64,000 bases of DNA from an uncultured Mycoplasmatota bacterium (GTDB lineage Bacteria > Bacillota_I > Bacilli_A > Izemoplasmatales > Izemoplasmataceae): positions 237,433 to 301,432 of the forward strand of contig CAJXVW010000002.1 of assembly GCA_913062645.1 (NCBI GenBank), given 5' to 3'. Position numbers and translations under genes: made by a program. The notes beneath the pieces are model-generated. The model worked only from the letters and a program-made list of their open reading frames with translations, made no database searches and was not told the DNA's origin. This document shows positions 3,979-35,077 of this stretch, one piece after another. The stretch's first letter is position 1. Every line of letters starts with the position of its first letter.

Positions 3979-5064
3979 TTACTGTGTTGGTGTCTCTTCG
4001 TGCAGGCGGATGAAAATGTAACCGATGGTGATGTCGTCTTGCGCGCTCAGCTGATAGGACAAGATGACGGTTTCACGATCCGGCTGCTCCGTCGCGATGG
4101 CAGAAATGAACGATGCCGAAACAATCAGCGTATCGTCATCGAACACGTAATCCGCGGTACCGATGTCCGCACCGCTGACGGTGACGAACTCTCCACCGAA
4201 CAAGGCAAATTCAAAACTGAGGTCGTTTCCCTCGAACAACACGGTATTGGGTGAAATCATCGCCGGCGAGGCATCCTCATAGACTTCGAGCGTGACATCA
4301 ATGCGTTCGCTTGTGGTGATGATTTGAATGACATGCTCACCCGGGGTCAACACGGCGAGCCACGACGATGCGATGTAGACTCGATCGGTCTGGATGTCGA
4401 GCCATTCATCGGGCAGGAATCCACGACCATTTCGAAACAGTGCGATCACGGGTTCTGTCAGTACGGCATCGACCCGCAAATCGATTGGAAGGAGCCGGTT
4501 GAAATCCGCATCGAATGCCTGGCTGGCTTCCGGGAAAGTATGGTGATACACCGGCTCTGACCAGACGGACGAGCCCGTCGCGTAAATCGCTTTGACGCGA
4601 ATGGTGAACAGGCCGTCTTCATGGAACGGCAGAGTCATTTGTGTTGTCTCGGTGGTGTAGGTCTGATCGTTGACGGCGACTTCGAACGAAATCGCTTCGC
4701 CATCCAGGGTCCATTCCAGGACACCGCCTTGATAGTTCACGTTCCGCGGAATCTCATAGGTGCGGCTTAACGTGATTTCCAACGGCTCGGAAAACTCGGA
4801 TTGCCGATCCATGCGATTGGCACGGACACGGAAGACGTAGGTTCCGTCTGCCAGTTCCAACAGGGAATATTCATTGGTCGACACCAGTTCTTCGGTGCCG
4901 TCGATCTCGACCGTGTAGTATCCGGCATCGTCCACCGCATCCCAACGAATCGCGTCCTCTTCGTGAACGAGATTGGTCGGAACTGCGAGCATTGGCTCAT
5001 CCTCGGCCGACTTGCAGCCGACCAGCAACGTTGCAAGCAGCACGGTCATCAGTAATTTTTTCAT
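3979..5064 (-). CDS. lipoprotein with FnIII-like and X2-like Ig modules
   Basis: MKKLLMTVLLATLLVGCKSAEDEP lipobox; IRWDAVDDAGYYTVEIDG; VYIASSWLAVLTPGEHVIQIITTSERIDVTLEV. Confidence 0.7.
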   Translation of the reverse strand: MKKLLMTVLLATLLVGCKSAEDEPMLAVPTNLVHEEDAIRWDAVDDAGYYTVEIDGTEELVSTNEYSLLELADGTYVFRVRANRMDRQSEFSEPLEITLSRTYEIPRNVNYQGGVLEWTLDGEAISFEVAVNDQTYTTETTQMTLPFHEDGLFTIRVKAIYATGSSVWSEPVYHHTFPEASQAFDADFNRLLPIDLRVDAVLTEPVIALFRNGRGFLPDEWLDIQTDRVYIASSWLAVLTPGEHVIQIITTSERIDVTLEVYEDASPAMISPNTVLFEGNDLSFEFALFGGEFVTVSGADIGTADYVFDDDTLIVSASFISAIATEQPDRETVILSYQLSAQDDITIGYIFIRLHEETPTQ

Positions 5065-5112
5065 GTGTCTCACCTCTCGTGTGTGTTCCGCGGACTGAAA
5101 CGATGAGGATTG

Positions 5113-6279
5113 TTACAACCCGATTTCCTCGAACATCTCGGCGACGCGATGAATGTGTTGTTTGGGAATCGCCGTTTGCCGCATCATCTGAATCGATTTG
5201 CGACGATTTGTGAACAGTACGCGAATCAGACGCATCGTCCATGCGACGGGATACAACAACACCGTCCGATCCAGAAACCGGTAGCGATGCCGCAACGCCT
5301 GCCGCGACGGAAAAATCATTCGCCGCAGATGCGTCCAGCGTGGATGTTCGCCGGCGGTGGAGCTGATTCGACCAAGGGCGCGATTGAAGCGTTCGCCGGT
5401 TCCGTGCACGCCACTGAGTGCGACGTAGCGTGTCATCAGTTCGAACGTGCCTTCGGTCCATTCGATTGGTTCGGGCAGTTTCGTGGGAAGTCCGAAATAG
5501 CGTTGGGCCATGGCAAGAACCGTGACGGCGAACCGCCGGTACCCGATCTCGTCGAGATACGTCCGGACGGTGTCCCAGCGAATGTCTTGAGCGTAGTGTT
5601 CCACGTACAGTCCGATGTCCAGAAACGTGCGCAGGCCGACGCCGCCGGACCGGAAGTGTTTCGCCATGTGGTAGATGAGATACACCAACTCGTATCCGAT
5701 CTCGAGCTGGTGCTCGTGCTGTCTCGACGGGACGGCGTGATCCCAAGCCGTATCAAAGAGTGTGTGATCGCCGCCGTCGATGTTGCGCGAGATGCGGGGA
5801 TGCACCTCGATTGTGACCTGATTGGTGTGGGTGAACAGGTCGTGCGCTTCGCTGTTGACGGGATTCACATAGCCATGCGTTTCCAACAATTGATGAACAT
5901 CATCCATGTTCCGTTCGCGGACAAGAACATCAATGTCGCCCATCGAGCGCATGTGCGGTGCGGGATAGAGGTTCCGCAAGCGCGAACCCTTCATGAAGAC
6001 ATGATCAATGCCCGCCTCATCGAACAGTTTGCGGAGATCTTGCATCGCCTCGTCCTGGCGTGCTGCGGTGGCGACGTAAACGTAGTGCTCGCGTCGCAGT
6101 TTCTCGCACAGTTCGGTGGTGTCTTCGCTGTGACAGAGAGTGTGATAGATGGTTCCGGACAACCCGTTTTCCTTGGCCATGCGAAACAACAGAGCGGGAT
6201 TGTCCGGCGTTCCCTCGAATCGTTGTCCAACGATCGTGTCGCGGACAATCGAGCATAGCAACATGGCAGTGTCAAGCAT
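5113..6279 (-). CDS. nucleotidyltransferase family protein (NTP_transf_5-like)
   Basis: GIDHVFMKGSRLRNLYPAPHMRSMGDIDVLVRERNMDDVHQLLETHGY; start at MLDTAMLLCSIV rather than ORF start 6456. Confidence 0.75.
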   Translation of the reverse strand: MLDTAMLLCSIVRDTIVGQRFEGTPDNPALLFRMAKENGLSGTIYHTLCHSEDTTELCEKLRREHYVYVATAARQDEAMQDLRKLFDEAGIDHVFMKGSRLRNLYPAPHMRSMGDIDVLVRERNMDDVHQLLETHGYVNPVNSEAHDLFTHTNQVTIEVHPRISRNIDGGDHTLFDTAWDHAVPSRQHEHQLEIGYELVYLIYHMAKHFRSGGVGLRTFLDIGLYVEHYAQDIRWDTVRTYLDEIGYRRFAVTVLAMAQRYFGLPTKLPEPIEWTEGTFELMTRYVALSGVHGTGERFNRALGRISSTAGEHPRWTHLRRMIFPSRQALRHRYRFLDRTVLLYPVAWTMRLIRVLFTNRRKSIQMMRQTAIPKQHIHRVAEMFEEIGL

Positions 6280-6709
6280 GATTCGAATCACGTCCTTTGC
6301 GGATCGCTCGCCGGAATCTGAGCGCCGTTCGGTACAACAACACATGCAATCGTTGCAGCGGACGATTGACAGGTTTCGCGGGTTCATCCGCACCATATTT
6401 GCTAACGATTCCCAGCACGTCGCTGCGACCGCAGGTTTCATTGGAGAAGCGCGCATCCCCGCGCAAGGTCAGTCGATCGCCGGTTCCGATCAGACGGTGA
6501 AGCACGAGCCGATCACCGATGCGACACAAAAGAATGTCATTGCGCCGTGGTTCGCGCCGGATGGGACGAATCTCCACCAATGTCTTGCGATGGCGAAACA
6601 ACGGACGCATGCTGGAACCAGTCACGCGGAGCACGACCGATTGATCATTGCCGAGATGCTCCTCGAGAAACCGAAGGGCATCGGAAGCGGCCAGTGATAC
6701 GATCTTCAC
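6272..6709 (-). CDS. S24/S26 (signal-peptidase-like) protein without N-terminal TM
   Basis: 145 aa; VLRVTGSSMRPLFRHRKTLVEI ... NDILLCRIGDRLVLHRLIGTGDRLTLRGDA; GTG start overlapping PqqD stop (GTGA). Confidence 0.7.
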   Translation of the reverse strand: MKIVSLAASDALRFLEEHLGNDQSVVLRVTGSSMRPLFRHRKTLVEIRPIRREPRRNDILLCRIGDRLVLHRLIGTGDRLTLRGDARFSNETCGRSDVLGIVSKYGADEPAKPVNRPLQRLHVLLYRTALRFRRAIRKGRDSNHA

Positions 6710-6972
6710 GACTCCAATAGCCGGTGTTTGCGGACGATCGCGAGAAATGATCGCACGTCACGACTGGCGACATCGCGGGTCACCTCGAACGAATCCAACA
6801 AGAGCTCAATCAGGTCGGTCTCCTCGGCACCGCTTTGCAACGCACGGAACAACATCGCGCCAGACGCATTCAGCGTGATGATGCCATTGAACGAAACCGC
6901 CTCTTGACCAGATGGCACAACAACGTATTCCCCAGCCAATTCCTTGAGGATGTATTCAGACTTTATCTTCAT
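6706..6972 (-). CDS. PqqD family protein (RiPP recognition element-like)
   Basis: MKIKSEYILKELAGEYVVVPSGQEAVSFNGIITLNASGAMLFRALQSGAEETDLIELLLDSFEV. Confidence 0.85.
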   Translation of the reverse strand: MKIKSEYILKELAGEYVVVPSGQEAVSFNGIITLNASGAMLFRALQSGAEETDLIELLLDSFEVTRDVASRDVRSFLAIVRKHRLLES

Positions 6973-7819
6973 ATTGACCTCCGAAAATTTCATGATGCAG
7001 GACAGCAGCACTATCTGCTGTAATCCGACTTTCAAAGGAGACGACAAGCACCTTATCAATTATTGATTCTATCATATTTGATACAACATCAAGCAACTCT
7101 CGATTGCGGGGTCGAACAACATGCTGAAACAACTTGACCATTTTTTCCTTATTGGAGAGTTGCACAATTTTGTTGGTTCCTCTTGCGATGCAGACAACAG
7201 CCTTGACCGTTGCATGATCATTGGCCTGTTTCATATCCTTTCCGCACCACGGCGATCCCGCCACCCACAGCCTTCCGTCTTCCAGATAAAGCAACGGCTT
7301 GTCATCGTTGATGTATGTCGCGTCGAATCGTTCGATCCAATGGCGTGCATGGGTGGACTTGCCCGTCCCCGACGTCGCCGCGAACAACACCGCGTCGTCG
7401 CCCAGTCGGATCGCCGAGGCGTGAAGGGCGACCCGTCCGTGCAGAAGCGCAAGTTCCATGAAGATCATGCCGGTTAGAACATATTCCAACTCCGCCAAGC
7501 GTGACCGTTCGTCCTGTTCATGCAGGCGGACGGTGATCAGGCGGTAGTCCCGATCATGGCAAATCATCTGCTTGCAGACGCCACTCTCATCGTACGCCGC
7601 GATCCAGGTTTGATTGTTGTCCTGATACACGTGACGATTGCGATACGCGGCCGTTTCACGCAAGCCGTTCGGAACATCGAATCCAGATTCGACACGGACC
7701 ATGATGCGGTGTTGCGGATTGTCGTAAGACGTAACGTAGGGGTCTATCAACGTCTGGAAATAATCGTCGAAAACATACTGCAGTTCCACGCGGATTCCCG
7801 CTACCAGCAATTTGGCCAT
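6956..7819 (-). CDS. HprK-like kinase (lasso/RiPP-cluster K-protein type)
   Basis: 287 aa; LHASAIRLGDDAVLFAATSGTGKSTHARHW (P-loop), YINDDKPLLYLEDGRLWVAGSPWCGK. Confidence 0.8.
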   Translation of the reverse strand: MAKLLVAGIRVELQYVFDDYFQTLIDPYVTSYDNPQHRIMVRVESGFDVPNGLRETAAYRNRHVYQDNNQTWIAAYDESGVCKQMICHDRDYRLITVRLHEQDERSRLAELEYVLTGMIFMELALLHGRVALHASAIRLGDDAVLFAATSGTGKSTHARHWIERFDATYINDDKPLLYLEDGRLWVAGSPWCGKDMKQANDHATVKAVVCIARGTNKIVQLSNKEKMVKLFQHVVRPRNRELLDVVSNMIESIIDKVLVVSFESRITADSAAVLHHEIFGGQYEDKV

Positions 7820-7916
7820 GGCATCACCTCGTCAAAGTAATTATATCACAGCATTCGAAAACAACAAGCCCTTTCCTTGTCGCCTGCAACATGCTACAAT
7901 AAATTGAGGTGATGTG

Positions 7917-9545
7917 ATGTTCTACCTTCGATTCTATCGTGACCGCATCCGTGAGTTCCCCTGGTTGAAGCGCCCCCTGCTGCTTTTGACCGCGTTGAAT
8001 TTGGTGCTTGGCGCCACCGCGGTCGGCTTTGCCTATGTCAGCAAACTGGTGCTGGACGACATCCTTCAAAACGACGTCGCCAACATCGTGTTCAACGCGC
8101 TATTGCTGGCGGGTTTCATCGTGTTTCAACTGGTGTTGAAAACGACGACCAACTATCTGGCGACCGTGTATCAGACCACCACCCACAAACGGCTTCAGGA
8201 TCACTACGTCAAAACATTGCTGGGCCGAACGCTGCCGGCGATCCAAAGCAAGCACACCGGGCTTTGGATGAATCATCTCGACAGCGACGTGGTCCGATTC
8301 AGCCATGGCGTTCTCGACATCGCACCGCGGTTCGCCTTCATGGCGTTCCGATTCGTTCTCGCGTTCGTGCTGCTGGCCTATCTCGACTGGATGGTCGCAC
8401 TGGTGCTGGTCGGTTTCGGCGGGGTGTTGCTGATCATCGCCCTGACCCTTCGCGAGGAAATGAAACGACGCCATGTCGAGCGACAGGACGCCGAAGGGGC
8501 GGTCCGCAGTTTCCTTCAGGAACAACTGGATCACGCGCCGGTCATAAAATCCTACCAGGCCGAGACGTACACGCTCGACCTGCTTCGCGGACATCAGACG
8601 GTCTATGCCGACAAACAGATTCGTTCGCGTCGTCTTGCGATTGTCGCATCGACCGGCCTTCAGGCCGGCTTCATGCTGGCTTACGCCCTGGTCATCGTCC
8701 TCGGCGCATACCGCATCACCCTCGGCGCGCTCACCGTCGGCGGGCTGGTGGCGATCCTGCAGTTGACGGAATATATGCAATCGCCGTTCCGCATCGCCGG
8801 CAATCTTCTTCCAGCGTATTCCGCCATGGAATCCTCCTTTGAACGCCTGCAAGGAATCGCGGCACTGGAAGTCGAAGCGACGGACCGAGTCCCGGTCCGA
8901 CCATTCGATCGAATCGTCATCGACAATCTTCACTTCTCCTATGGTGCCAGCGAAATTCTGAATGGTCTGTCGTTCGAGGTTCGCCAAGGCAGCCTCGTTC
9001 ATCTCGCCGGTCCATCCGGCATCGGCAAGACGACCTTTCTGTATCTGTTGCTCGGATTGTTGCGCCCGACAGGCGGCAACATCGCCCTGGTCCACGACGA
9101 CGACACGCAGCCGATCGGACCAGAGACCCGTTCCTACTTCGCTTTCGTCCCGCAACAGATTCGCATCGTGTCGGGCACGATTCGCGACAACCTCCGGTAC
9201 AACCGCGACGAAATCGATGACAACGCATTGGTTCAGGCTTGTCAAAACGCCGTAATCGACAAGGACATCGAAGCCCTGCCCAACGGATATGACACCGTCG
9301 TCGGCGAACGCGGTCTCGGAATGAGCGAAGGGCAGCTGCAACGGCTTGCCATTGCCCGGGCGTTGTTGTCGGAGGCCTCCGTTCTCATTCTCGACGAAGC
9401 CACCTCCGCTCTGGACAAAGAGACGGAACAACTCGTTCTTGCCAATCTGCGTCAATTGCCAGACAAGACGATCATCCTCGTGTCTCATCGCGACGTGGAC
9501 GACGACATGACGTATCAGCGAATTGACATTGGACATCAACCATAA
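7917..9545 (+). CDS. ABC transporter, fused permease/ATP-binding exporter
   Basis: Six-TM-type N-terminal region; Walker A GPSGIGKTT; signature GMSEGQLQRLAIARALL; Walker B VLILDEATSALD. Confidence 0.9.
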   Translation: MFYLRFYRDRIREFPWLKRPLLLLTALNLVLGATAVGFAYVSKLVLDDILQNDVANIVFNALLLAGFIVFQLVLKTTTNYLATVYQTTTHKRLQDHYVKTLLGRTLPAIQSKHTGLWMNHLDSDVVRFSHGVLDIAPRFAFMAFRFVLAFVLLAYLDWMVALVLVGFGGVLLIIALTLREEMKRRHVERQDAEGAVRSFLQEQLDHAPVIKSYQAETYTLDLLRGHQTVYADKQIRSRRLAIVASTGLQAGFMLAYALVIVLGAYRITLGALTVGGLVAILQLTEYMQSPFRIAGNLLPAYSAMESSFERLQGIAALEVEATDRVPVRPFDRIVIDNLHFSYGASEILNGLSFEVRQGSLVHLAGPSGIGKTTFLYLLLGLLRPTGGNIALVHDDDTQPIGPETRSYFAFVPQQIRIVSGTIRDNLRYNRDEIDDNALVQACQNAVIDKDIEALPNGYDTVVGERGLGMSEGQLQRLAIARALLSEASVLILDEATSALDKETEQLVLANLRQLPDKTIILVSHRDVDDDMTYQRIDIGHQP

Positions 9546-24490: not shown

Positions 24491-26995
24491 ATGCCCAAAT
24501 GGATGTTGCTGGCAACTGCCATGCTATTCGTTTTGACACTGTCCGCCTGTCGGCGTGACGACGAAGACCCGGATGACACCAATCACGACGATCCGATCGT
24601 CGACGATGATGAGCAAATCCCCAACGGTGGCTTTGAAACCGGTGATCTCACCGGATGGACCGTGGTGTCCGGATCGGCGTTCGCCGATGCGGGTGTGACC
24701 GACGCCATCATCGATCCTTCTCACAACCGCCCCTACGGACAAGAGGGGTCGTACTTCTACGGACGGTATCAGGAGTCCGAAGTCGGCGTGTTGCGCTCGA
24801 CCGCCTTCACCATCAAGGACAGCGGCTACATCAGTTTTCGTCTGGGAGGCGGACAAAACACCGCCCTGACATACGTGTCGATCAAGGATGCTTCAACGGG
24901 AATCGAGTACGCCCGTTTCGGCAACACGTTGTTCAACTCGGACACGACCGATGATTATGCCCGGTTCAACGAGTCCAATCTGGTTCCGTACATCGCTGAT
25001 CTGTCTACCTATCTCGGTGAAACGGTATACATCGAGATCGTCGATCGGTCACGACAGAACTGGGGACTCCTGACATTCGACGATTTCATCACGCATTACG
25101 AGACATCCCCCGATCAGACGGTCGGCTCTCTAGCAGATGACATCAAACCGCGGTTCGCCGTTCCCAATTCTCCATTTGCGCCCAATAACTCGACTTTTGA
25201 TACCAGCGATTTGAGCGGTTGGACCGTCGCCTATGGGGATGCATTCAACGACAATCATGTCGTAGCCGGTCCATATGGGCAGCGCCTCAACAACCGGAGT
25301 TCGGAAAGCGAACTGGGCGTGTTGCGGTCCGGTCTGTTCACGGTTCAGGGTTCGGCATTCGTTTCCTTCCGGCTCGGAGCGATGCATCAGAACAACCGCG
25401 ACCATCTGTACCTGTCGATTCGGAAGGCCGGAACCAACGAAGAAGTCTTCCGCACCTACAACTCCCGCGGCCGTTTCAGCGATGAAGAAGCCACGCACTT
25501 GTACTTCGTGGATCTCGAGGAACACCGCGGCGACCAACTCTATTTCGAGTTGGTGGACAACGCCGCTTCCGAGTGGGGCTTAATCATCTTCGAAGACTTG
25601 ACGACACACTATCCGGAAATGCCATTCGTGCGAGACGAGATCGCCGTCGACTTGAATCATCTCGGTGCGACGGAACGGACGTACGCCGTGATGCGCGCCG
25701 ATGTCGACGCGTGGATCGCGGGTATCGACCCATCGGACTTTATTCCCGACGATGCGGATGCGGCGACCATCGCGTTCTACGAAGACCATTTCCGCACCAT
25801 CTTGTCCAACGTGTTCTACTCGACGATTGACGGCTTCACCGTTGAATCGCCAAAATCCGGGACGCTGACGTTTCCCGGGGTCAACAGTTACCTCGAAGAC
25901 GGCACGACCTTCACAATCACCGGCGACATCCCGGCGATGTGGCTGCGCGACTCGCCGGCACAGATCCTCCAGTACCTGCATTGGGCGGATCAGGATCCTG
26001 ACGTCCGCGACATGACCAAAGGCATGATCCGTCGACTGTTCATGTACATTCGCATGGACCCCTACGCCAACGCCTTCAATCTGGACGGTTCGACATGGGA
26101 GCGCAAGTATGAAATTGATTCGCTGTGTTATCCGATTTGGCTCGCCCAGCAGTATTATGACATCACCGGCGACGACTCGATTTTCGACAAGTACTACATG
26201 ATGACCGTCGACACGATCATCGCGACCTTCCTCGCCGAACAGAATCATTCCGACGCCAACTACGACATCGCCGAAGTGTCGCAGGCGGACAAGGACAAAT
26301 ATCCGACTGCGGTGCAGACAGGCATCGGACTGATCTACAACGCCTATCGTCCCAGTGACGACGTATCGAAATACAAATACTTGATCCCTTCGAACATGTT
26401 CGCCGTCGTGATTCTCGAATACATCGCCTCAATCTACACCGAACTCGAGCTCGACAGCACGACCGCCCAACAGGCGAGCGACCTCGCGGCGGAAGTCCGG
26501 GCGTCGATCTACGAACACGGTACCTACGATCATCCGACCTACGGTGAGATCTTCGCCTACGAGGTCGACGGTCTGGGCAACTACAACTTGATGGACGACG
26601 CCAACATCCCGAGTCTGTTGTCGATACCCTGGCTGGGATTCGTCGATGCCGACGATCCGATCTATCAGAACACCCGCGCCTTCATCCTCAGCGAAGACAA
26701 TCCGTTCTACTTCAGCGGCACCTTCGCCGCCGGCATCGGCAGCGAGCACACGCCGAACGGATACGTCTGGCCGATGGCTCTGGCGATGCAGATGATGACC
26801 AGCACGAACGACGTCGAATGGCGAAATGCGCTGGCAGACATCGTGCTCAACACGGCCGGCACGTTCGTGCTGCATGAAGGGTTCAATGTCAACGATCCCG
26901 CAGATTACTCGCGCGAATGGTTCACATGGCCGTGCGCGCTGCTCGCCGAAGCTATCATCCAACATGAAGCGGACAAATTGTCCGCGGTCGAATAG
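24491..26995 (+). CDS. GH125-family exo-alpha-mannosidase-like lipoprotein with two N-terminal NGGFETGDL modules
   Basis: LTLSACRRD lipobox; FTITGDIPAMWLRDSPAQILQYLHWA; IRMDPYANAFNLDGSTWERKYEIDSLCYPIWLAQQYYDITGD. Confidence 0.88.
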   Translation: MPKWMLLATAMLFVLTLSACRRDDEDPDDTNHDDPIVDDDEQIPNGGFETGDLTGWTVVSGSAFADAGVTDAIIDPSHNRPYGQEGSYFYGRYQESEVGVLRSTAFTIKDSGYISFRLGGGQNTALTYVSIKDASTGIEYARFGNTLFNSDTTDDYARFNESNLVPYIADLSTYLGETVYIEIVDRSRQNWGLLTFDDFITHYETSPDQTVGSLADDIKPRFAVPNSPFAPNNSTFDTSDLSGWTVAYGDAFNDNHVVAGPYGQRLNNRSSESELGVLRSGLFTVQGSAFVSFRLGAMHQNNRDHLYLSIRKAGTNEEVFRTYNSRGRFSDEEATHLYFVDLEEHRGDQLYFELVDNAASEWGLIIFEDLTTHYPEMPFVRDEIAVDLNHLGATERTYAVMRADVDAWIAGIDPSDFIPDDADAATIAFYEDHFRTILSNVFYSTIDGFTVESPKSGTLTFPGVNSYLEDGTTFTITGDIPAMWLRDSPAQILQYLHWADQDPDVRDMTKGMIRRLFMYIRMDPYANAFNLDGSTWERKYEIDSLCYPIWLAQQYYDITGDDSIFDKYYMMTVDTIIATFLAEQNHSDANYDIAEVSQADKDKYPTAVQTGIGLIYNAYRPSDDVSKYKYLIPSNMFAVVILEYIASIYTELELDSTTAQQASDLAAEVRASIYEHGTYDHPTYGEIFAYEVDGLGNYNLMDDANIPSLLSIPWLGFVDADDPIYQNTRAFILSEDNPFYFSGTFAAGIGSEHTPNGYVWPMALAMQMMTSTNDVEWRNALADIVLNTAGTFVLHEGFNVNDPADYSREWFTWPCALLAEAIIQHEADKLSAVE

Positions 26996-27005
26996 GAGGA
27001 CAACC

Positions 27006-29522
27006 ATGCAACCAACGACCATCTTGAACCGCGGCGCTCTCGCGCTGCTTGCCTTCCTTTGCATCATGCTGTCGCTGGGTACGCACGCGCTTCACGCCGA
27101 CACTGCTACATACGGTGTCGATCTCGCCTTCGGGCGGCGCGTCGTCTCCACTCCCCACACCGATGACAACACAAACACCCGCGCCGTCGACGCCAATCCC
27201 GACTCGCGTTACGCCAGTCAGGAAATCGATGACGCCTTCTTCTACGTCGATCTCGGATCGATGGAGAAGATCAAGCGCATCGTCATAACCTGGGAAGCGG
27301 CGTATGCCAGCGAATATGAGATACAGTTATCGAACGACGCCATGAACTGGACGACCGTGGAAACCGTGACGAACACGCAACAGACGATTGACGACATCGT
27401 GCTCAGCCATTATGTGGAAGCACAGTTCGTCCGTTTTCAGGGCGTGTCGCGCGCGACGTCCTACGGCTACTCGTTCTACAGTTTTGAAGTTTACGGCGCG
27501 CCCAGTCTGTCGAACGGAGCCTCGGTCTATGAGGTCTCCAGTCACGAAAACGAGTCCGAACTGCCCGCCGCGGCGATGACGGACAATCTCGCCGAAACGC
27601 GATGGGCGTCGACCGTCGCCGACAATCAGTACGTCCTGATCGACCTCGGCGCGGATACGATTTTCGACACCGTCAAGATTCGCTGGGAGGTCAGTTTCGC
27701 CCGCATTTTCGACATCTATGTCCAAAGCGATGTCGCGACCCAACCGGCGCGCGACGATGCCGGATGGGTCTGGATCGCCGGATCCGATGTCGGACTCGGC
27801 GAAGTCGACACGTTGACGACCGACACACCGATTTCGGCACGCTATGTGAAACTCGAACTCGTGCAGCGCGAAACATCGGAAGCCACCAAGAAAACCGGAC
27901 GATTCCCATGGGAATCGACGTTCTCCATCCATTCGTTCGAACTGTTCGACTGGAGCGCGATCGACGCATTGCCGCTCGGACATGCCATGGAGTTTTCGCA
28001 AAACAGTCCGGCCTGGCCGACGATGACCAACATCCGTCTCTTTGAAGAGGGGCTTTTGCTGGCACCCCACGGCTATCCGATCGAAGCCGACGGCGTGGTC
28101 ACCAATCTCGCCAGCATCGCTGACGGCGACATCCCCGGATTCGAGTCTTACGCCGTTTACAACCCCGGCGTCATCTACGACGACGACCGAGACATTTTCC
28201 ACATGATCTATCGTTCCGAATTGCCGGACAACTTCCGTCAGTATTTCGGAACACGATATGAACTCGGGCACATGTCGACACTGTCGTATGCTTCGTCGCC
28301 GGACGGATACCATTTCACCCGTGGTGACAACAACCCGGTGGTGTGGGCGACGCTGGCCGAAGAAAACGGCGGCGGCACCGAAGACCCCCGCATCTTCAAG
28401 ATACAGAACGATCCGAACCGCGATGGCCTGACGACTTATTACATCACTTACACGATGTACGATTACTCGATGACGCGCCAGGGCATTCTCTACACGCACG
28501 ACTTCGAAACCTTTCACAAAGTCGGCAACATCGCACCCGGATACGGTGGTGCGTTGAAATCCGGATCGTTCCTCACCGATCCCGAGGGCAACGCCGTCAA
28601 AATCAATGATCCTCGTCCCGGAAAGACCGGCATGGTCTACATGATCTACATGAAAGACGGCGCCTATACCCGCATCGGCTTCACCGACGACGTGATCAAC
28701 ATCGCTCCGGAGGACATCGTTGACATCGATACATCCGGATTCGGTCCCAACAGCATTGAAGCGCTGACCAAGTGGAACGAATCCTGCATGGCCATCACCA
28801 ACATCTACGGACCGGACGACCAGGACATCTATCTGATGTATGGCGGAACGCGTCTGAGCGATGAGAACATCCAGTACGAACAACCCAATGCGACCGGTTG
28901 GTTCTACGCCCTCGGCGCACTGAAGACAACGAAATCCAATCCGTTCGAACTGACCAACGTCGAACTGGATCTCGACGAACCGTCGATGTATCCGACCGAC
29001 ACCAACAAGATTGATTACGGCCTGTTTGAAAAATGCATGTTTGCCGATCAGATGATCCGCTACGACAACACCTGGTTCCTCTACTATGGCGCCGGCGACA
29101 TGTACGTCGGGCTGGCCAACGCCCGCGCCGATTTCAGTGCCGGAGCAGTGCGCTTCGAGCGTGAGGGGGACATTCTCACCTATGAAACGTTCGCCCTGAA
29201 CAAGCAATACGGAACGAATCAGACCGATTGGGACGTGGAACTGGTGCTGGCCATCTTCGATGGCGATCACCAACTGATCGACCAACAAACGCTGGCGGCT
29301 ACCGTCCCGCACTTTCGCCATCTCGACCGAGGCGCTTACGCCAACGGTTTGTATCTGGAAGACAGCGTTGACTTGTCGACGTACACGCTCCCGGCGACCT
29401 ATTATGCCGTCGCCTATCTGCGCGACGCTCAGACGCTCGAGATTCTCAACCAACAATCGGTGTTCACGGTCATCAGCGCCACGACCACGAGCACACCGGT
29501 GCCAAACCAAAAGGAGGCCTGA
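27006..29522 (+). CDS. secreted GH130-like enzyme with two F5/8 type C (discoidin/CBM32-like) domains
   Basis: Signal peptide MQPTTILNRGALALLAFLCIMLSLGTHALHA; ADANPDSRYASQ...YVDLGSMEKIKRIVITWE; YNPGVIYDDDRDIFHMIYR; GGTEDPRIFKI. Confidence 0.8.
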   Translation: MQPTTILNRGALALLAFLCIMLSLGTHALHADTATYGVDLAFGRRVVSTPHTDDNTNTRAVDANPDSRYASQEIDDAFFYVDLGSMEKIKRIVITWEAAYASEYEIQLSNDAMNWTTVETVTNTQQTIDDIVLSHYVEAQFVRFQGVSRATSYGYSFYSFEVYGAPSLSNGASVYEVSSHENESELPAAAMTDNLAETRWASTVADNQYVLIDLGADTIFDTVKIRWEVSFARIFDIYVQSDVATQPARDDAGWVWIAGSDVGLGEVDTLTTDTPISARYVKLELVQRETSEATKKTGRFPWESTFSIHSFELFDWSAIDALPLGHAMEFSQNSPAWPTMTNIRLFEEGLLLAPHGYPIEADGVVTNLASIADGDIPGFESYAVYNPGVIYDDDRDIFHMIYRSELPDNFRQYFGTRYELGHMSTLSYASSPDGYHFTRGDNNPVVWATLAEENGGGTEDPRIFKIQNDPNRDGLTTYYITYTMYDYSMTRQGILYTHDFETFHKVGNIAPGYGGALKSGSFLTDPEGNAVKINDPRPGKTGMVYMIYMKDGAYTRIGFTDDVINIAPEDIVDIDTSGFGPNSIEALTKWNESCMAITNIYGPDDQDIYLMYGGTRLSDENIQYEQPNATGWFYALGALKTTKSNPFELTNVELDLDEPSMYPTDTNKIDYGLFEKCMFADQMIRYDNTWFLYYGAGDMYVGLANARADFSAGAVRFEREGDILTYETFALNKQYGTNQTDWDVELVLAIFDGDHQLIDQQTLAATVPHFRHLDRGAYANGLYLEDSVDLSTYTLPATYYAVAYLRDAQTLEILNQQSVFTVISATTTSTPVPNQKEA

Positions 29523-29523
29523 C

Positions 29524-31590
29524 ATGAAACGACTGCTAGGTTCCATCACACTTGTTCTCGTTATCCTGCTGGCCGCCTGCGGCGGTGGACTGGATCGCCC
29601 CGAACCTCGTCTCGAAGCCGACCGGCTTGTTTCTTGGGATGCGATCGACAACGCCACCGCATACGAGATTGAAACCGGCGAGGAGACAATCACCGTCACC
29701 GAACCGTCGTGGACCATTCCCGGTCGTCTCTTCGGAGAGTTGTCCATTCGCGTCCGCGCGACGGACGGCGACAGGTTCGGCGATTTCAGTGAACCACTCG
29801 ATCTCACGGTTTACTTGCAGCTCGCCCCGCCCGACGGCATCCGTCAGGAGAATGGCGCGATCCGTTGGAATGCAGTTGCCGAAGCCACGGGTTACGTGGT
29901 TCGCATCAACGGCGTGGAATACCCCGCCAGCGGCACGACCTTCACCTATCAAGTCCTCGCTCCGACAACCGTCGAGATCCTCGCTCTCGGCAATCCGACC
30001 GGCTATGTCCGCAACAGTTTGTTCAGCGACAGCGTGACCTTGCGAGCACAACTCGCATCGGTCGCCAACATCACCTTCGACGATGGTGTTCTGTCCTGGG
30101 ATGCGGTCGCCAACGCCACGTCCTATCGCATCGTCATTGACGGCGACACCTACACCGCAACTACCAATGAACTGATCTTGCCGGCGCTGTACGGTGGCGA
30201 CGTGGATGTCTCAGTCACGGCATTGGATAATACAAGCACCTACCTATCATCCATTGCGACGACGACCGCTATCTCCATTCCGATGGTGGAATTGGACACC
30301 CCGACCGGCGTCACCGTTGCCTCGGGCATCCTGTCGTTCAACGCCGTGACCGGAGCGACCCGGTACGACATCTATGTCGACGGCATGTTCTACTCCACCA
30401 TCACCACAACCACGTACACCTTGCCGACGGCACTCTTGAACGACGGCGCACTGTATGTCCAAGTCGTCGCCGACGCGGACGGTTTCGTCGCGTCACAGCC
30501 AAGCACTCGCGCCTACATCGAAGTCACGGCAATCGCCACCGAAAGCGCCCTCCGAGCGATCGACCCCGACGGCGCCTACGTCCTGACGGCCGACATTGAG
30601 TTGTCTGGTTCGTGGGTTCCGATGTCCTTCACCGGCTTTTTCGATGGTGACGGACACACCATTTCCGGCATTGTCATCACAGCGGACGAAGCGGAAATCG
30701 GATTCTTCACCAATCTCTCCGAAGCAGTGGTTCAAAACCTCCGTCTCGAGGGCTCGATCGACCTCACCACAACGTCCAACAACGCCCGCGTCGGCGGACT
30801 TGCCGGGCGTTCCACCAAGAGCGACATCGAAAACGTCGATGTCGACATGTCGATCCTCGCCGTCTCAACCAACGGCGTCGGATTCCTAGGTGGCCTGTTC
30901 GGACAGAGCGAAGGAAACCGCGTCGTGCGAAGTTCCTTCACGGGCACCATTGAAGCAACCCATTTCACGGTCGGGGGATTGATCGGGCTCAGTGACGATC
31001 CCACCGCCGAACAGTGGATATATCAATCCGCCGTAACGGCGACGATCACCGTCGTCGGCGGCGAACAGAGCGCCAGCGGCGGCTTCATCGGTCGCATGGG
31101 CAACAATCGGATGACCATCGAACAGAGTGTCGCCGATGTTGTCCTGAGCGGTCCCGGTTACGTCGGCGGATTCGTCGGCTATCTCGGATCAGGCCGGATC
31201 GAAGACAGTCTCGCGCTCGGCACAGTCGAAGCGACCAGCGCATTCCTCGTCCATGCCGGTGGTTTCATCGGCCGCATGGAAGGATACAACAGCCATGTCG
31301 CGACCAGCATCAGCAAGGTCGCGGTCACCGCGTCCGAAACGGGTGATGACATTTTTGTCGGCAGTTTCGTCGGACACACCGTTGGTGGGACGTACCACAC
31401 CGTCTACGACAACTGCGTCTATGACATGGCGACCAGTAGCCTGGATCGCATCGGCAATCCTGACAGCGGAAGGGGGGATGGCATTCGTGGCGAACCGATG
31501 AACACTCCAACCACGCTCGAAGGGTTCGATACAAGCGTATGGAATTTCACCGCATCAACACCCGCATTGAACTGGCAATCACAACAATGA
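29524..31590 (+). CDS. lipoprotein with FnIII-like repeats and C-terminal GLUG repeats
   Basis: LVILLAACGGG lipobox; WDAVANATSYRIVIDGDTYT repeats; VGGLAGRSTKSDIENV, VGGLIGLS, SGGFIGRMG, VGGFVGYLGSGRIEDS. Confidence 0.75.
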   Translation: MKRLLGSITLVLVILLAACGGGLDRPEPRLEADRLVSWDAIDNATAYEIETGEETITVTEPSWTIPGRLFGELSIRVRATDGDRFGDFSEPLDLTVYLQLAPPDGIRQENGAIRWNAVAEATGYVVRINGVEYPASGTTFTYQVLAPTTVEILALGNPTGYVRNSLFSDSVTLRAQLASVANITFDDGVLSWDAVANATSYRIVIDGDTYTATTNELILPALYGGDVDVSVTALDNTSTYLSSIATTTAISIPMVELDTPTGVTVASGILSFNAVTGATRYDIYVDGMFYSTITTTTYTLPTALLNDGALYVQVVADADGFVASQPSTRAYIEVTAIATESALRAIDPDGAYVLTADIELSGSWVPMSFTGFFDGDGHTISGIVITADEAEIGFFTNLSEAVVQNLRLEGSIDLTTTSNNARVGGLAGRSTKSDIENVDVDMSILAVSTNGVGFLGGLFGQSEGNRVVRSSFTGTIEATHFTVGGLIGLSDDPTAEQWIYQSAVTATITVVGGEQSASGGFIGRMGNNRMTIEQSVADVVLSGPGYVGGFVGYLGSGRIEDSLALGTVEATSAFLVHAGGFIGRMEGYNSHVATSISKVAVTASETGDDIFVGSFVGHTVGGTYHTVYDNCVYDMATSSLDRIGNPDSGRGDGIRGEPMNTPTTLEGFDTSVWNFTASTPALNWQSQQ

Positions 31591-31637
31591 CACGATGAAT
31601 GGGCACATGCACCTAGATTACCGTAAGGAGGAATCAC

Positions 31638-31757
31638 ATGAAACAAGAATACGAAGCACCAACCATTGAAATCATTGAATTCGAATTGGAAGACAGCATT
31701 GCAAGCAGCGCCGATTTCGGTGGCGGAGCCATCGGAACCGAAGGCTTGTTCGAGTGA
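31638..31757 (+). CDS. 39-aa candidate RiPP precursor peptide
   Basis: RBS aaggaggaatcac then ATG; MKQEYEAPTIEIIEFELEDSIASSADFGGGAIGTEGLFE; YxxPxI leader-like motif, Gly-rich C-terminus; below ORF-track size cut-off. Confidence 0.75.
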   Translation: MKQEYEAPTIEIIEFELEDSIASSADFGGGAIGTEGLFE

Positions 31758-31768
31758 GGAGGACGGTC

Positions 31769-33997
31769 ATGAAACGACTTGGCGTTCTACTGTTGTTCAC
31801 GGTCCTGTTCCTCATCTCGGCCAACCACACGTTCGCCCTGCCGCAACAGGGCGCGGACTCCGTTACCGTTCAAGTCACGACGTATTTCGACAGTGACAAT
31901 ACGACCGGACCGGTATCCGTCAGCGCGACATACGGCGCGGCGCTTGCCTTTGACGGCGACCTGGACGAAGAAACCACCGGCTACACGTTCGCGTTCTGGT
32001 TGCTCAACGGAACCATCCGCAAAGACTTGCCCATCGATCATCAATTCATCGTAACCGACAACATGAGTCTTACCGGCGTCTTCAAACCCGACACGACAAG
32101 TCCTGAGACGTTCTATCTCCTGTTCATCGACACCAACGGAGAAGAACTCGGCATTCAGTACGTCACCGACGGCAATGACGGCACCGACATCACCGAGGGC
32201 CTTCCGACCAAACCGGGCTACACGATTTCTTCCACCCCGAAATGGTCCGACGACTACACCGGCGTGAACGAAGACCGCATCCTCATTCTCCGCTACGACA
32301 AGAGCACGAGCGACACCTATACGCTCACCGTCGACGGCGGCACCACGGATGACGGTTCCGGCAGTTCGACGAGCGGCACATACGACTACAATGAAGTCGC
32401 TACCGTCGTCGCCGACACCCCCGCCGGGGGCGAGTATTTCCATCACTGGGAAATCAACGACCGCACGGTCAGTTACCAGTCGACCTACTCGTTCACCGTC
32501 CTCGAAAGCGTCACCATCACCGCCGTGTACGCGACATCCGCACCGTCCGACAGCCCTCATGTCGGATTGAGTTACAACCTGTCGCTGCGCAGCGGATACA
32601 AATCCTATCTCGGCCAGTTCTATTTACCCAGCGGGTACACCTTGGTGGAGTACGGCGTGCTTTCTTCAACCTCGCAAGCCGACCTCTACATCGACACGGC
32701 GGGCGTGCAGCGCAATCAAGGCATGAAGTATCTCGGGACAACCAATGAGTTCGTCCTGTCGATCGCCGAAGCCAACGCTGTCAGCGTCAAACCGTACCTG
32801 ATCGCCAAAGACGGCTCGAACAACCTTGTGACCGTCTACGGACAGGCGTCCTACAACCTCTACAATGGTGGCTTCGAGACCGGTGATCTCACCGGCTGGA
32901 ACGCCTACACCCTCTGGAAGGATGAAAGCGGCATGGCGGCCTTCATCGACGATCGTGTCGTCAGCGGAACCTATTTTGGCGGCGGTTATCCATACGATCG
33001 CGAAGGCACTTACAACATCGGTGTCGAAGGCGGTTCGCTCACGTGGGACCAGAGTTCCGAACGCATGGGACATCTCCGCTCCGCGGACTTCACCCTCGGC
33101 GGCAGCGGTTGGATCAGTTTCAAACTCGGCGGCGGTAGAACGCCGGACTTCGCTTATGTCTCCGTCCGCAAGACCGAGGACCACACGGAAGTGGCGCGAT
33201 TCGCCAATCGTCATTACAATGACACCACCAAGGCGACCGCGCAATACGGCTCTACAATCACCAACGCCGAAGCGTTCATGTTCCAGTATTACTTCGACCT
33301 CGGCAGCCTGGCGGATGTCAGTCTCGGTGACAGCCTGTACTTCGTGCTGACCGAAGCGGCGGCATACGACTGGGCCATCCTGTCGGCCGACGCATTCGTG
33401 ACGTACTACAAGACAGCGCCATCGACAACCACCGACACGTTGGCGGAGAACATCGTTCCTTCCATCAACGGAGCGGGAAGCGCGACCAACAGCATTCCCA
33501 ACGGCGACTTCTCCAGCGGTCTGACAAGCTGGGACGACGTCCAGGGCGGTTGGTACGACAACTCCGGCATCGCTCAGAGCAACGAGAGCGGTGACGGTGA
33601 TCTCGGCGTCCTTCGCTCGAGCGCATTCACGATCAACGGCAGTAACATCTACCTCGAGTTCGACTGGGGCGGCGGCCTGAAATGGGACAAGCAGATTTTT
33701 GTCTCCGTCAAGGAAGTCGGCACCAACATCGAAGTGTTGCGCTTTGTCCGTCGTGACAATCTGTCTGGAAAAGAAAACACCAATCTGGACAATCACATGA
33801 TGGACATTTCCGGACTCGACAGCAGCAAAGAGTATTACCTCGAATTCGCTGACAATCGAACCAGCTCCTGGGGATTGTCGATCATCGACAACGTCGAATT
33901 GGTCGACCAGACTCGCTGGGACGCGGTAACGAGCGGTGACCGAGGCGTCTCCATCTCCGGCATTCCCACCAATTTCGCTTACGTCAAACCGGAGTAG
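31769..33997 (+). CDS. secreted protein with beta-repeat-type domains and two C-terminal NGGFETGDL modules
   Basis: Signal peptide MKRLGVLLLFTVLFLISANHTFA; YNGGFETGDLTGWNAYTLW; SIPNGDFSSGLTSWDD; RBS gaggagg. Confidence 0.75.
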   Translation: MKRLGVLLLFTVLFLISANHTFALPQQGADSVTVQVTTYFDSDNTTGPVSVSATYGAALAFDGDLDEETTGYTFAFWLLNGTIRKDLPIDHQFIVTDNMSLTGVFKPDTTSPETFYLLFIDTNGEELGIQYVTDGNDGTDITEGLPTKPGYTISSTPKWSDDYTGVNEDRILILRYDKSTSDTYTLTVDGGTTDDGSGSSTSGTYDYNEVATVVADTPAGGEYFHHWEINDRTVSYQSTYSFTVLESVTITAVYATSAPSDSPHVGLSYNLSLRSGYKSYLGQFYLPSGYTLVEYGVLSSTSQADLYIDTAGVQRNQGMKYLGTTNEFVLSIAEANAVSVKPYLIAKDGSNNLVTVYGQASYNLYNGGFETGDLTGWNAYTLWKDESGMAAFIDDRVVSGTYFGGGYPYDREGTYNIGVEGGSLTWDQSSERMGHLRSADFTLGGSGWISFKLGGGRTPDFAYVSVRKTEDHTEVARFANRHYNDTTKATAQYGSTITNAEAFMFQYYFDLGSLADVSLGDSLYFVLTEAAAYDWAILSADAFVTYYKTAPSTTTDTLAENIVPSINGAGSATNSIPNGDFSSGLTSWDDVQGGWYDNSGIAQSNESGDGDLGVLRSSAFTINGSNIYLEFDWGGGLKWDKQIFVSVKEVGTNIEVLRFVRRDNLSGKENTNLDNHMMDISGLDSSKEYYLEFADNRTSSWGLSIIDNVELVDQTRWDAVTSGDRGVSISGIPTNFAYVKPE

Positions 33998-34005
33998 CAC
34001 CATGA

Positions 34006-34030
34006 GGGCGGCATCTGCCGCCCTTTTTTG
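34006..34030 (+). terminator. Rho-independent terminator ending the glycan operon
   Basis: gggcggca-tc-tgccgccc followed by tttttt. Confidence 0.85.
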
Positions 34031-34084
34031 TTGACCTGATGGGATGAATGTGTTAACGTTGAAGTAACAAGGGAGGTTAACAAA

Positions 34085-35077
34085 ATGAAAAAAGTTACGT
34101 TGCAGACGATCGCTGACAAATTCGGGATCAGCAAAGTTGCCGTTCACAAAGCTCTGACAGGCAAGAAAGGGGTCAGCGACAAGCTGCGCAAAGAAATCGT
34201 GGCTTACGCTGATTCGGTTCATTACAAGCTGAAATCCGCGAAAGTCGACGTCGACAACAAGCGGTTCATCTTTTTTGTTAACCAGGATTTCTTTCTCACT
34301 CCCTCAGAACAGTTCTATTCCACAATCTTCTACTTCCTGAGCGCGGAATGCAATCGCATTGGCAGCACCCTTCAAGTCGCGTTCTTGCATCAGTCGAATG
34401 CCATTCAGACCATTCAACAAGCGACTGCGTCATTCAAGCCCGATGGTCTGTTCTTTGTCGGGCAGTTGGATTCGGACGCCATGCGGCACATCCGAACGCT
34501 GGACGTGCCAACGGTGTTCATCGATTATCATGTGCCAAAGGGGGGCGTTTCGAGTGTCTACATCAACCATTACGATGCCGGGTACCGGTTGACGTCCTAT
34601 CTCATTGAAAGCGGACATGAGGACATCGGTTTCATCGGTAACACAGGATCGACCAGCGCCATCATGGATCGCTACTTCGGATATCGCAAAGCGTTGTTGC
34701 AAGCCGGTTTGGCATTTCGCGAGAATCGTCATCTGAATTCCAATGTCGAACAAGACAATCCGAATCTGACGTTTCAACGAGAAAACCTGCCAAGCGCCTA
34801 TGTGTGTCACTGTGATGCCGCAGCCCAATGGCTTTACGCCTGGTTGTCGAGCAACGGCATGCGGATTCCGCAGGATGTCTCGATCGTCAGTTTTGACGAC
34901 ACGATGCTGTGCGACAGCCTGTTGCCACGCCTGACATCGCTCGGACCAAACAAGGAGCGTTTCGCGAAACTGGCGTTCCATCAGATGCTCGAATTGCTTC
35001 GCAATCCTGACAACACATCACAAACTCGATTGGAACCGAGCCTGTCGACACGCGAATCGGTTTTGCTACTCCTATAA
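34085..35077 (+). CDS. LacI family transcriptional regulator
   Basis: MKKVTLQTIADKFGISKVAVHKALTGKKGVSDKLRKEI HTH; SGHEDIGFIGNTGSTSAIMDRYFGYRKAL. Confidence 0.9.
   Translation: MKKVTLQTIADKFGISKVAVHKALTGKKGVSDKLRKEIVAYADSVHYKLKSAKVDVDNKRFIFFVNQDFFLTPSEQFYSTIFYFLSAECNRIGSTLQVAFLHQSNAIQTIQQATASFKPDGLFFVGQLDSDAMRHIRTLDVPTVFIDYHVPKGGVSSVYINHYDAGYRLTSYLIESGHEDIGFIGNTGSTSAIMDRYFGYRKALLQAGLAFRENRHLNSNVEQDNPNLTFQRENLPSAYVCHCDAAAQWLYAWLSSNGMRIPQDVSIVSFDDTMLCDSLLPRLTSLGPNKERFAKLAFHQMLELLRNPDNTSQTRLEPSLSTRESVLLLL

Follow-up and report, generated by a model that had tools for sequence, protein, structure and literature searches.

Several enzymes that tailor ribosomally synthesized and post-translationally modified peptides (RiPPs) are known from lasso peptides of the paeninodin and pseudomycoidin type, in which HprK-type kinases with a His-Lys-Asp-Asp motif phosphorylate the C-terminal serine, and PsmN attaches hexoses to the phosphoserine, possibly by way of nucleotidylation (PMC9266682). 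Leader peptides are recognized through a Y/W-x-x-P-x-L/I motif, and the RiPP recognition elements (RREs) of lasso, pyrroloquinoline quinone (PQQ), and sactipeptide systems bind Y-x-x-P-x-L/I (PMC12710340, PMC10368454). Here, we describe a cassette encoding an HprK-like kinase, a PqqD-family RRE protein, an S24/S26-type protease, and an NTP_transf_5 nucleotidyltransferase (NTase), with a divergent ATP-binding cassette (ABC) exporter, in a 64,000-nucleotide (nt) stretch, hereafter the window, from an uncultured Mycoplasmatota bacterium of the family Izemoplasmataceae (GCA_913062645.1, contig CAJXVW010000002.1, positions 237,433 to 301,432). With a probability of about 0.68, this cassette and a 39-amino acid (aa) peptide encoded elsewhere in the window are the maturation/export apparatus and the substrate of an RRE-guided, RiPP-like system, which here lacks a radical S-adenosylmethionine (rSAM) enzyme and whose chemistry we infer.

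The four cassette genes form a minus-strand operon whose ends overlap by 17, 4, and 8 nt, and encode the kinase (287 aa; 6956-7819), the RRE protein (88 aa; 6706-6972; Pfam PF05402, E = 6.6e-13), the protease (145 aa; 6272-6709; Pfam Peptidase_S24, E = 7e-7), and the NTase-like protein (388 aa; 5113-6279; Pfam PF14907, E = 1.6e-48). The exporter, which combines transmembrane and nucleotide-binding domains (7914/7917-9545, plus strand; Pfam ABC_membrane and ABC_tran), is divergent from the operon, with ~95 nt between them; the coordinates given in the original prediction for the overlapping genes and the divergent exporter are thereby confirmed. Base composition does not mark the cassette as foreign, falling only slightly around 7-8 and 9-10 kb. 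The cassette is more than a chance arrangement, because the identical gene order recurs in many relatives.

Pfam yielded no HprK assignment for the kinase, and its NCBIfam matches, to HprK_rel_B and ScmC, are sub-threshold. Its AlphaFold model (predicted local distance difference test [pLDDT] score of 93) supports a P-loop kinase of the PEP carboxykinase/HprK fold, with HPr kinase/phosphatase as the best PDB match (1knx, E = 8e-7) and PEP carboxykinases next. More specifically, the protein has its motif residues intact, with His in LHASAI, Lys in GTGKST, and Asp-Asp in NDDKP, and its P-loop, HASA His, and NDDKP Asp pair are like those of 14 aligned relatives, with small variations. Similarly, the AlphaFold2 model of the PqqD protein (pLDDT 92.8), the only PqqD of the host genome, has as its best Foldseek match the lasso RRE TbiB1, crystallized with its leader bound (5v1u; E = 3.6e-6, TM score of about 0.79), and a sequence profile search against the PDB likewise returned TbiB1 (5e-8). 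The RRE fold on which the original prediction depended is thus present, which lends support to its broader view of a RiPP-like maturation cassette with RRE, kinase, NTase, and S26-type protease and no lasso cyclase. In the protease, G-x-SM-x-P and LHR motifs are conserved across relatives and suggest a Ser/His signal-peptidase-like site; a clostridial homologue has sub-cut-off matches to the models for archaeal signal peptidase I and SipW. The KG(S) ... GDID motif of the NTase is also conserved across relatives.

The candidate substrate was found by scanning for short open reading frames (ORFs) with a Y-x-x-P-x-[hydrophobic] motif. In relatives, a family of 40-50 aa peptides with an RRE-type leader motif (YxxPx[ILV]) is encoded directly after the cassette, and one member lies in the window: a probable 39-aa precursor, MKQEYEAPTIEIIEFELEDSIASSADFGGGAIGTEGLFE, encoded on the plus strand at 31638-31757 (family search, E = 1.5e-18), preceded by the ribosome-binding site TAAGGAGG and carrying Y-x-x-P-x-I as Tyr5, Pro8, and Ile10. 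It is the only clear copy of the family in the host genome, and neither Pfam nor NCBIfam holds a family for it. An [IF]-A-x-S motif is found in 31 of 32 non-redundant peptides; their C-termini vary, and the serine of this motif is the sole nearly invariant hydroxyl residue besides the leader Tyr. For 29 of the 32, a gene of one secreted-protein family follows immediately downstream on the same strand, as it does in the window (31769-33997, plus strand; 742 aa, signal-peptide-like N-terminus; family profile, 3e-118), and in about ten loci the peptide gene lies between the cassette and the secreted-protein gene. We considered a precursor adjacent to the cassette and rejected it, since no family member occurs among the small ORFs around 5-10 kb of the window. 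As to the earlier suggestion of a cassette that works with distant enzymes, a distant LasC or B2 is not needed, and it is the probable substrate that is distant (31638). From sequence, we conclude that the 39-aa peptide is probably the substrate of the cassette.

This pairing is supported by co-occurrence across 101 genomes (Fisher test), in which the peptide was detected in 17 of 24 genomes with the kinase versus 6 of 77 without it (p = 2.6e-9), and in 15 of 17 with the rSAM enzyme found in relatives versus 8 of 84 without it (p = 1.9e-10). An order-level search added no peptide-bearing genomes to the 23 known. In rSAM-bearing genomes, most peptides have a single Cys roughly nine positions C-terminal to the serine of IAxS; the core of the window peptide has no Cys. 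Among genomes with both a peptide and a maturation gene, 13 have rSAM and Cys, 2 have rSAM without Cys, none has Cys without rSAM, and 3 have neither (p = 0.012; p = 0.001 with three further loci), a table that leaves out G015, G017, G026, G046, and G085, where a Cys-bearing peptide was found and neither kinase nor rSAM was detected. Because the comparison was framed after the first sequences had been seen, we regard the Cys-rSAM linkage as a lead and not as a planned test. In G024 and G041 (cassettes L034 and L035), the sole detected precursor (L156:1219-1344 and L155:234-464) has Gly at the Cys position and shares G-x-G-A-[IV]-G-T-E with the window peptide; these genomes, which keep the rSAM, possibly represent an intermediate in its loss.

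The kinase is present in 23 of 100 related genomes; three genomes of the same genus have neither a kinase nor a peptide match, and the system is therefore accessory. The original prediction had proposed analyzing neighborhoods, and the HprK-PqqD-S26-NTase order indeed recurs in relatives, often led by an rSAM gene: in Izemoplasmatales, most intact neighborhoods run rSAM/SPASM, HprK, PqqD, S26, NTase. A divergent ABC gene like that of the window occurs in L032, L034, L036, L065, L080, L089, and L199; in the first three, from genomes of the same family, it lies upstream of the rSAM gene. Since the extra enzyme of cassette-bearing relatives is an rSAM/SPASM protein and not a lasso cyclase, the gene absent here relative to its kin is the rSAM gene, no homologue of which was found in the host genome. 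Cassettes without it occur elsewhere: kinase and ABC genes are directly divergent, with no rSAM between, in G044 (another genus), and the Acholeplasmataceae loci L065, L080, and L089 have an ABC gene divergent from HprK-PqqD-S26-NTase (the kinase ORF being split in L089), as does L074, in which PqqD was not detected. A tree of HprK proteins puts the window kinase among those of rSAM-bearing Izemoplasmatales at weak support (85/35), so that it does not separate loss of the rSAM gene from its never having been present.

When 84,980 species genomes were scanned, 80 loci were recovered, of which 53 are other loci, nearly all from clostridial metagenome-assembled genomes (MAGs). Genes found with the kinase at these 53 are PqqD (48 loci), S26 (37), ABC (16), NTase (10), and rSAM (1); a Y-x-x-P peptide lies near the kinase in 12, usually between kinase and PqqD. 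Variant arrangements were also seen. L044 encodes an rSAM/SPASM-HprK-like kinase fusion in a single 627-aa ORF (6379-8262, plus strand), and its contig carries a second, separate rSAM-HprK-PqqD cassette. A two-rSAM version occurs in the Bacillota MAG UR.bin57 (L134:4576-11900, plus strand), with S26, rSAM, PqqD, second rSAM, ABC, HprK, and NTase in a row. Genome G063 has rSAM-S26-NTase (L198:6906-9693, plus strand), with kinase and PqqD undetected in the 15 kb around and a Cys-bearing precursor elsewhere. L046 (G005) and L051 (G020) encode HprK-like proteins without PqqD, S26, or NTase neighbors, possibly orphans or parts of another system. At the clostridial loci L103:9402, L104:1864, L105:279, L106:9300, and L112:1955, the gene before the kinase encodes a small secreted protein that is dockerin-like and ends in Pro at its C-terminus (e.g., HIYQP), and no Y-x-x-P peptide was seen there.

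We compared the locus with the described systems closest to it. SynChlorMet (ScmC, HprK-like; ScmD, PqqD-like; ScmE/ScmF, rSAM/SPASM) shares kinase-like, RRE, and rSAM/SPASM components with this cassette family; the rSAM of relatives matches ScmE at 2.5e-19, far below the NCBI cut-off, and ScmC is the best match, again far below cut-off, of the kinases of L065, L091, and L111. The window kinase scores 19.8 bits against ScmC (cut-off, 125), and, unlike SynChlorMet, the cassette includes NTP_transf_5 and an S26 protease and comes with a defined family of precursors, in a genome without an rSAM of the cassette family. Likewise, HPr-rel-A (kinase A, TIGR04352; PqqD family, TIGR04353) shares the HprK-like kinase and PqqD partner through weak matches: the window kinase reaches 17.8 bits against TIGR04352 (cut-off, 200), and the window PqqD has no TIGR04353 match. 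With matches only below cut-off, we rejected membership in the SynChlorMet, HPr-rel-A, and PQQ systems. Sactipeptides and ranthipeptides share with the relatives an rSAM/SPASM enzyme (with sub-cut-off similarity to StsB, SkfB, and AlbA), an RRE, and a short Cys-bearing core; they differ from this family in that the latter has a single Cys per core, a kinase and an NTase, and no rSAM in the host genome. The window thus holds neither an rSAM maturase nor a Cys core, the maturase being found in most cassette-bearing Izemoplasmatales relatives. What the locus has in common with RRE-dependent RiPP systems in general is an RRE-fold protein and a short, co-conserved precursor with a recognition motif, non-adjacent here.

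The steps that we propose for the system are as follows. PqqD would bind the leader through Tyr5, Pro8, and Ile10, consistent with its fold and with the motif. The kinase would phosphorylate a serine; the likeliest is Ser24, the near-invariant residue of I-A-x-S, proposed as the target because the C-termini vary and no other hydroxyl, the leader Tyr aside, is near-invariant. By analogy with PsmN acting on phosphorylated lasso peptide, the NTP_transf_5 protein could then add a nucleotidyl or sugar group to the phosphate. The S26-type Ser/His protease would remove the leader near Ile-Ala-x-Ser, in line with the small-residue -3/-1 rule; it is the most likely enzyme for this step because the Pfam scan found no C39 peptidase domain in the window ABC protein. 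The IAxS site may serve kinase or S26 cleavage, as either event could use it. From the operon structure, export would fall to the divergent ABC protein, and the exported product may act at the cell surface together with the secreted protein encoded beside the peptide. In relatives, the rSAM/SPASM enzyme probably modifies the single fixed core Cys; the host genome is without both enzyme and Cys.

Three other explanations have to be weighed. The original prediction compared the genes with paeninodin-type lasso clusters and noted the missing cyclase, and a reduced cassette of this kind, with cyclase and B2 protease elsewhere or lost, would account for a kinase, PqqD/B1-like RRE, NTase, and exporter, all of which are known lasso accessory genes. 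The cassette resembles the lasso tailoring sets (PadeK/ThcoK/PsmK, PsmN, B1 RRE, ABC exporter) in its kinds of kinase and NTase, its RRE is structurally closest to TbiB1, and the leader motif Y-x-x-P-x-L/I is shared. It differs from them in having an S26-like protease in place of B2, no cyclase, a peptide paired with a secreted protein, and a conserved Ser in the leader/core region instead of at the C-terminus. The absence of cyclase and B2 noted for the window extends to the whole host genome (1.99 Mb, two contigs, 99.68% complete), in which the suggested LasC/B2 search found no such pair: Transglut_core3 (B2 protease) has no match, and Asn_synthase none above the cut-off of 21 bits, with two partial matches below it (20.6 and 19.9 bits). 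Nor do the 80 related loci contain an Asn-synthetase-like ORF by motif, one ThiI-like ORF apart. The Thr(-2) typically seen in lasso leaders is missing from the peptides as well, a conserved Thr being absent from the proposed -2 position of the window peptide, at which Ile/Val variants are known (PMC10368454). We therefore rejected the lasso cassette, which we consider very improbable. A decaying remnant, in which an essential rSAM is gone, the substrate Cys lost, and the rest persists without function, is less remote and still unlikely: the host genome has no rSAM homologue, the same-genus genomes have neither kinase nor peptide, and the relatives nearest in architecture retain the rSAM, but all cassette genes are intact with motif residues kept, the leader and IAxS motif are intact, and the divergent rSAM-less arrangement of G044 and the rSAM-less cassettes of Acholeplasmataceae (L065, L080, and L089 in full, L074 with PqqD undetected) recur outside this genome.

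NTP_transf_5 and HprK-like proteins also occur outside peptide systems, and fn3 lipoproteins and large secreted proteins accompany the cassette; it might hence act directly on these neighboring surface proteins or on a surface glycan, the peptide being a regulatory or accessory ORF. We judge this improbable as well, as the RRE fold and the Y-x-x-P motif point to leader recognition, the clostridial peptide lies inside the kinase-PqqD operon, and the core Cys tracks the presence of rSAM. Several observations weigh against an RRE-guided system of cassette and peptide. In this genome 24 kb separate the peptide gene from the cassette, and a recognizable peptide occurs in only 12 of the 53 non-mollicute loci. 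The co-occurrence p-values overstate independence, because the genomes are related and kinship is uncorrected. The peptide occurs without a detectable kinase in G015, G017, G026, G046, G063, and G085, several of them incomplete, and other genomes have the kinase and no detectable peptide; the kinase is not universal, since G063 combines rSAM, S26, and NTase with neither a kinase nor PqqD close by. As for the Cys-rSAM linkage, G024 and G041 have rSAM and a Cys-less peptide, of the three genomes scored as rSAM-negative, G020 and G084 are incomplete assemblies, and in G020 the kinase lies outside any recognizable cassette.

Further genes accompany both parts of the system. Directly downstream of the NTase gene is an fn3-containing lipoprotein gene (3979-5073, minus strand; lipobox LVGC), the family of which also travels with the cassette in relatives, where genes for fn3 lipoproteins and for one or two large secreted proteins, the latter bearing InlB-like, Ig-like, or endonuclease domains, come after the NTase. 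A related GLUG-repeat lipoprotein gene (29368-31590, plus strand; family profile, 9e-58; likely start further downstream, near 29.5 kb) lies upstream of the peptide gene. The interval of the original prediction (5113-9545) was correct for its genes and omits the fn3 lipoprotein and the peptide/secreted-protein pair (31638-33997, plus strand). A GH130/F5_F8 secreted protein is encoded upstream of this pair and a LacI-type regulator downstream of it (34085-35077), and the region as a whole (26994-35077, plus strand) is rich in surface and carbohydrate genes.

A kinase with RRE and rSAM (SynChlorMet) and lasso tailoring by kinase and NTase are already known, and by sequence the locus appears to belong to neither. 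A search of the open-access literature, with subscription literature outside its scope, found no paper combining HprK, PqqD, and rSAM or naming PF14907/NTP_transf_5, and a published review of RiPP leader proteases does not mention S26 or signal peptidase. There is a fair chance that the system represents a new RiPP class. More tentatively, and at odds we place below even, it may be an undescribed class spanning Izemoplasmatales, Acholeplasmataceae, and Clostridia, in which an RRE-guided kinase and NTP_transf_5 would modify the near-invariant Ser of a short peptide with a phospho-glycosyl or phospho-nucleotidyl group, S26 would release a product working with the secreted protein, and the rSAM step on the single Cys would be an optional module gained or lost together with that Cys.

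The pairing would give a concrete enzyme and substrate set for a kinase/RRE/S26/NTP_transf_5 cassette common in gut and sediment bacteria. It sets HprK/NTase tailoring apart from lasso peptides, so that a simple linear peptide can serve to study the chemistry. The apparent rSAM-Cys linkage offers a natural experiment on the gain and loss of RiPP modules, and the close association of the peptide with its secreted protein raises the question of whether such peptides act at the cell surface as opposed to being released as antibiotics.

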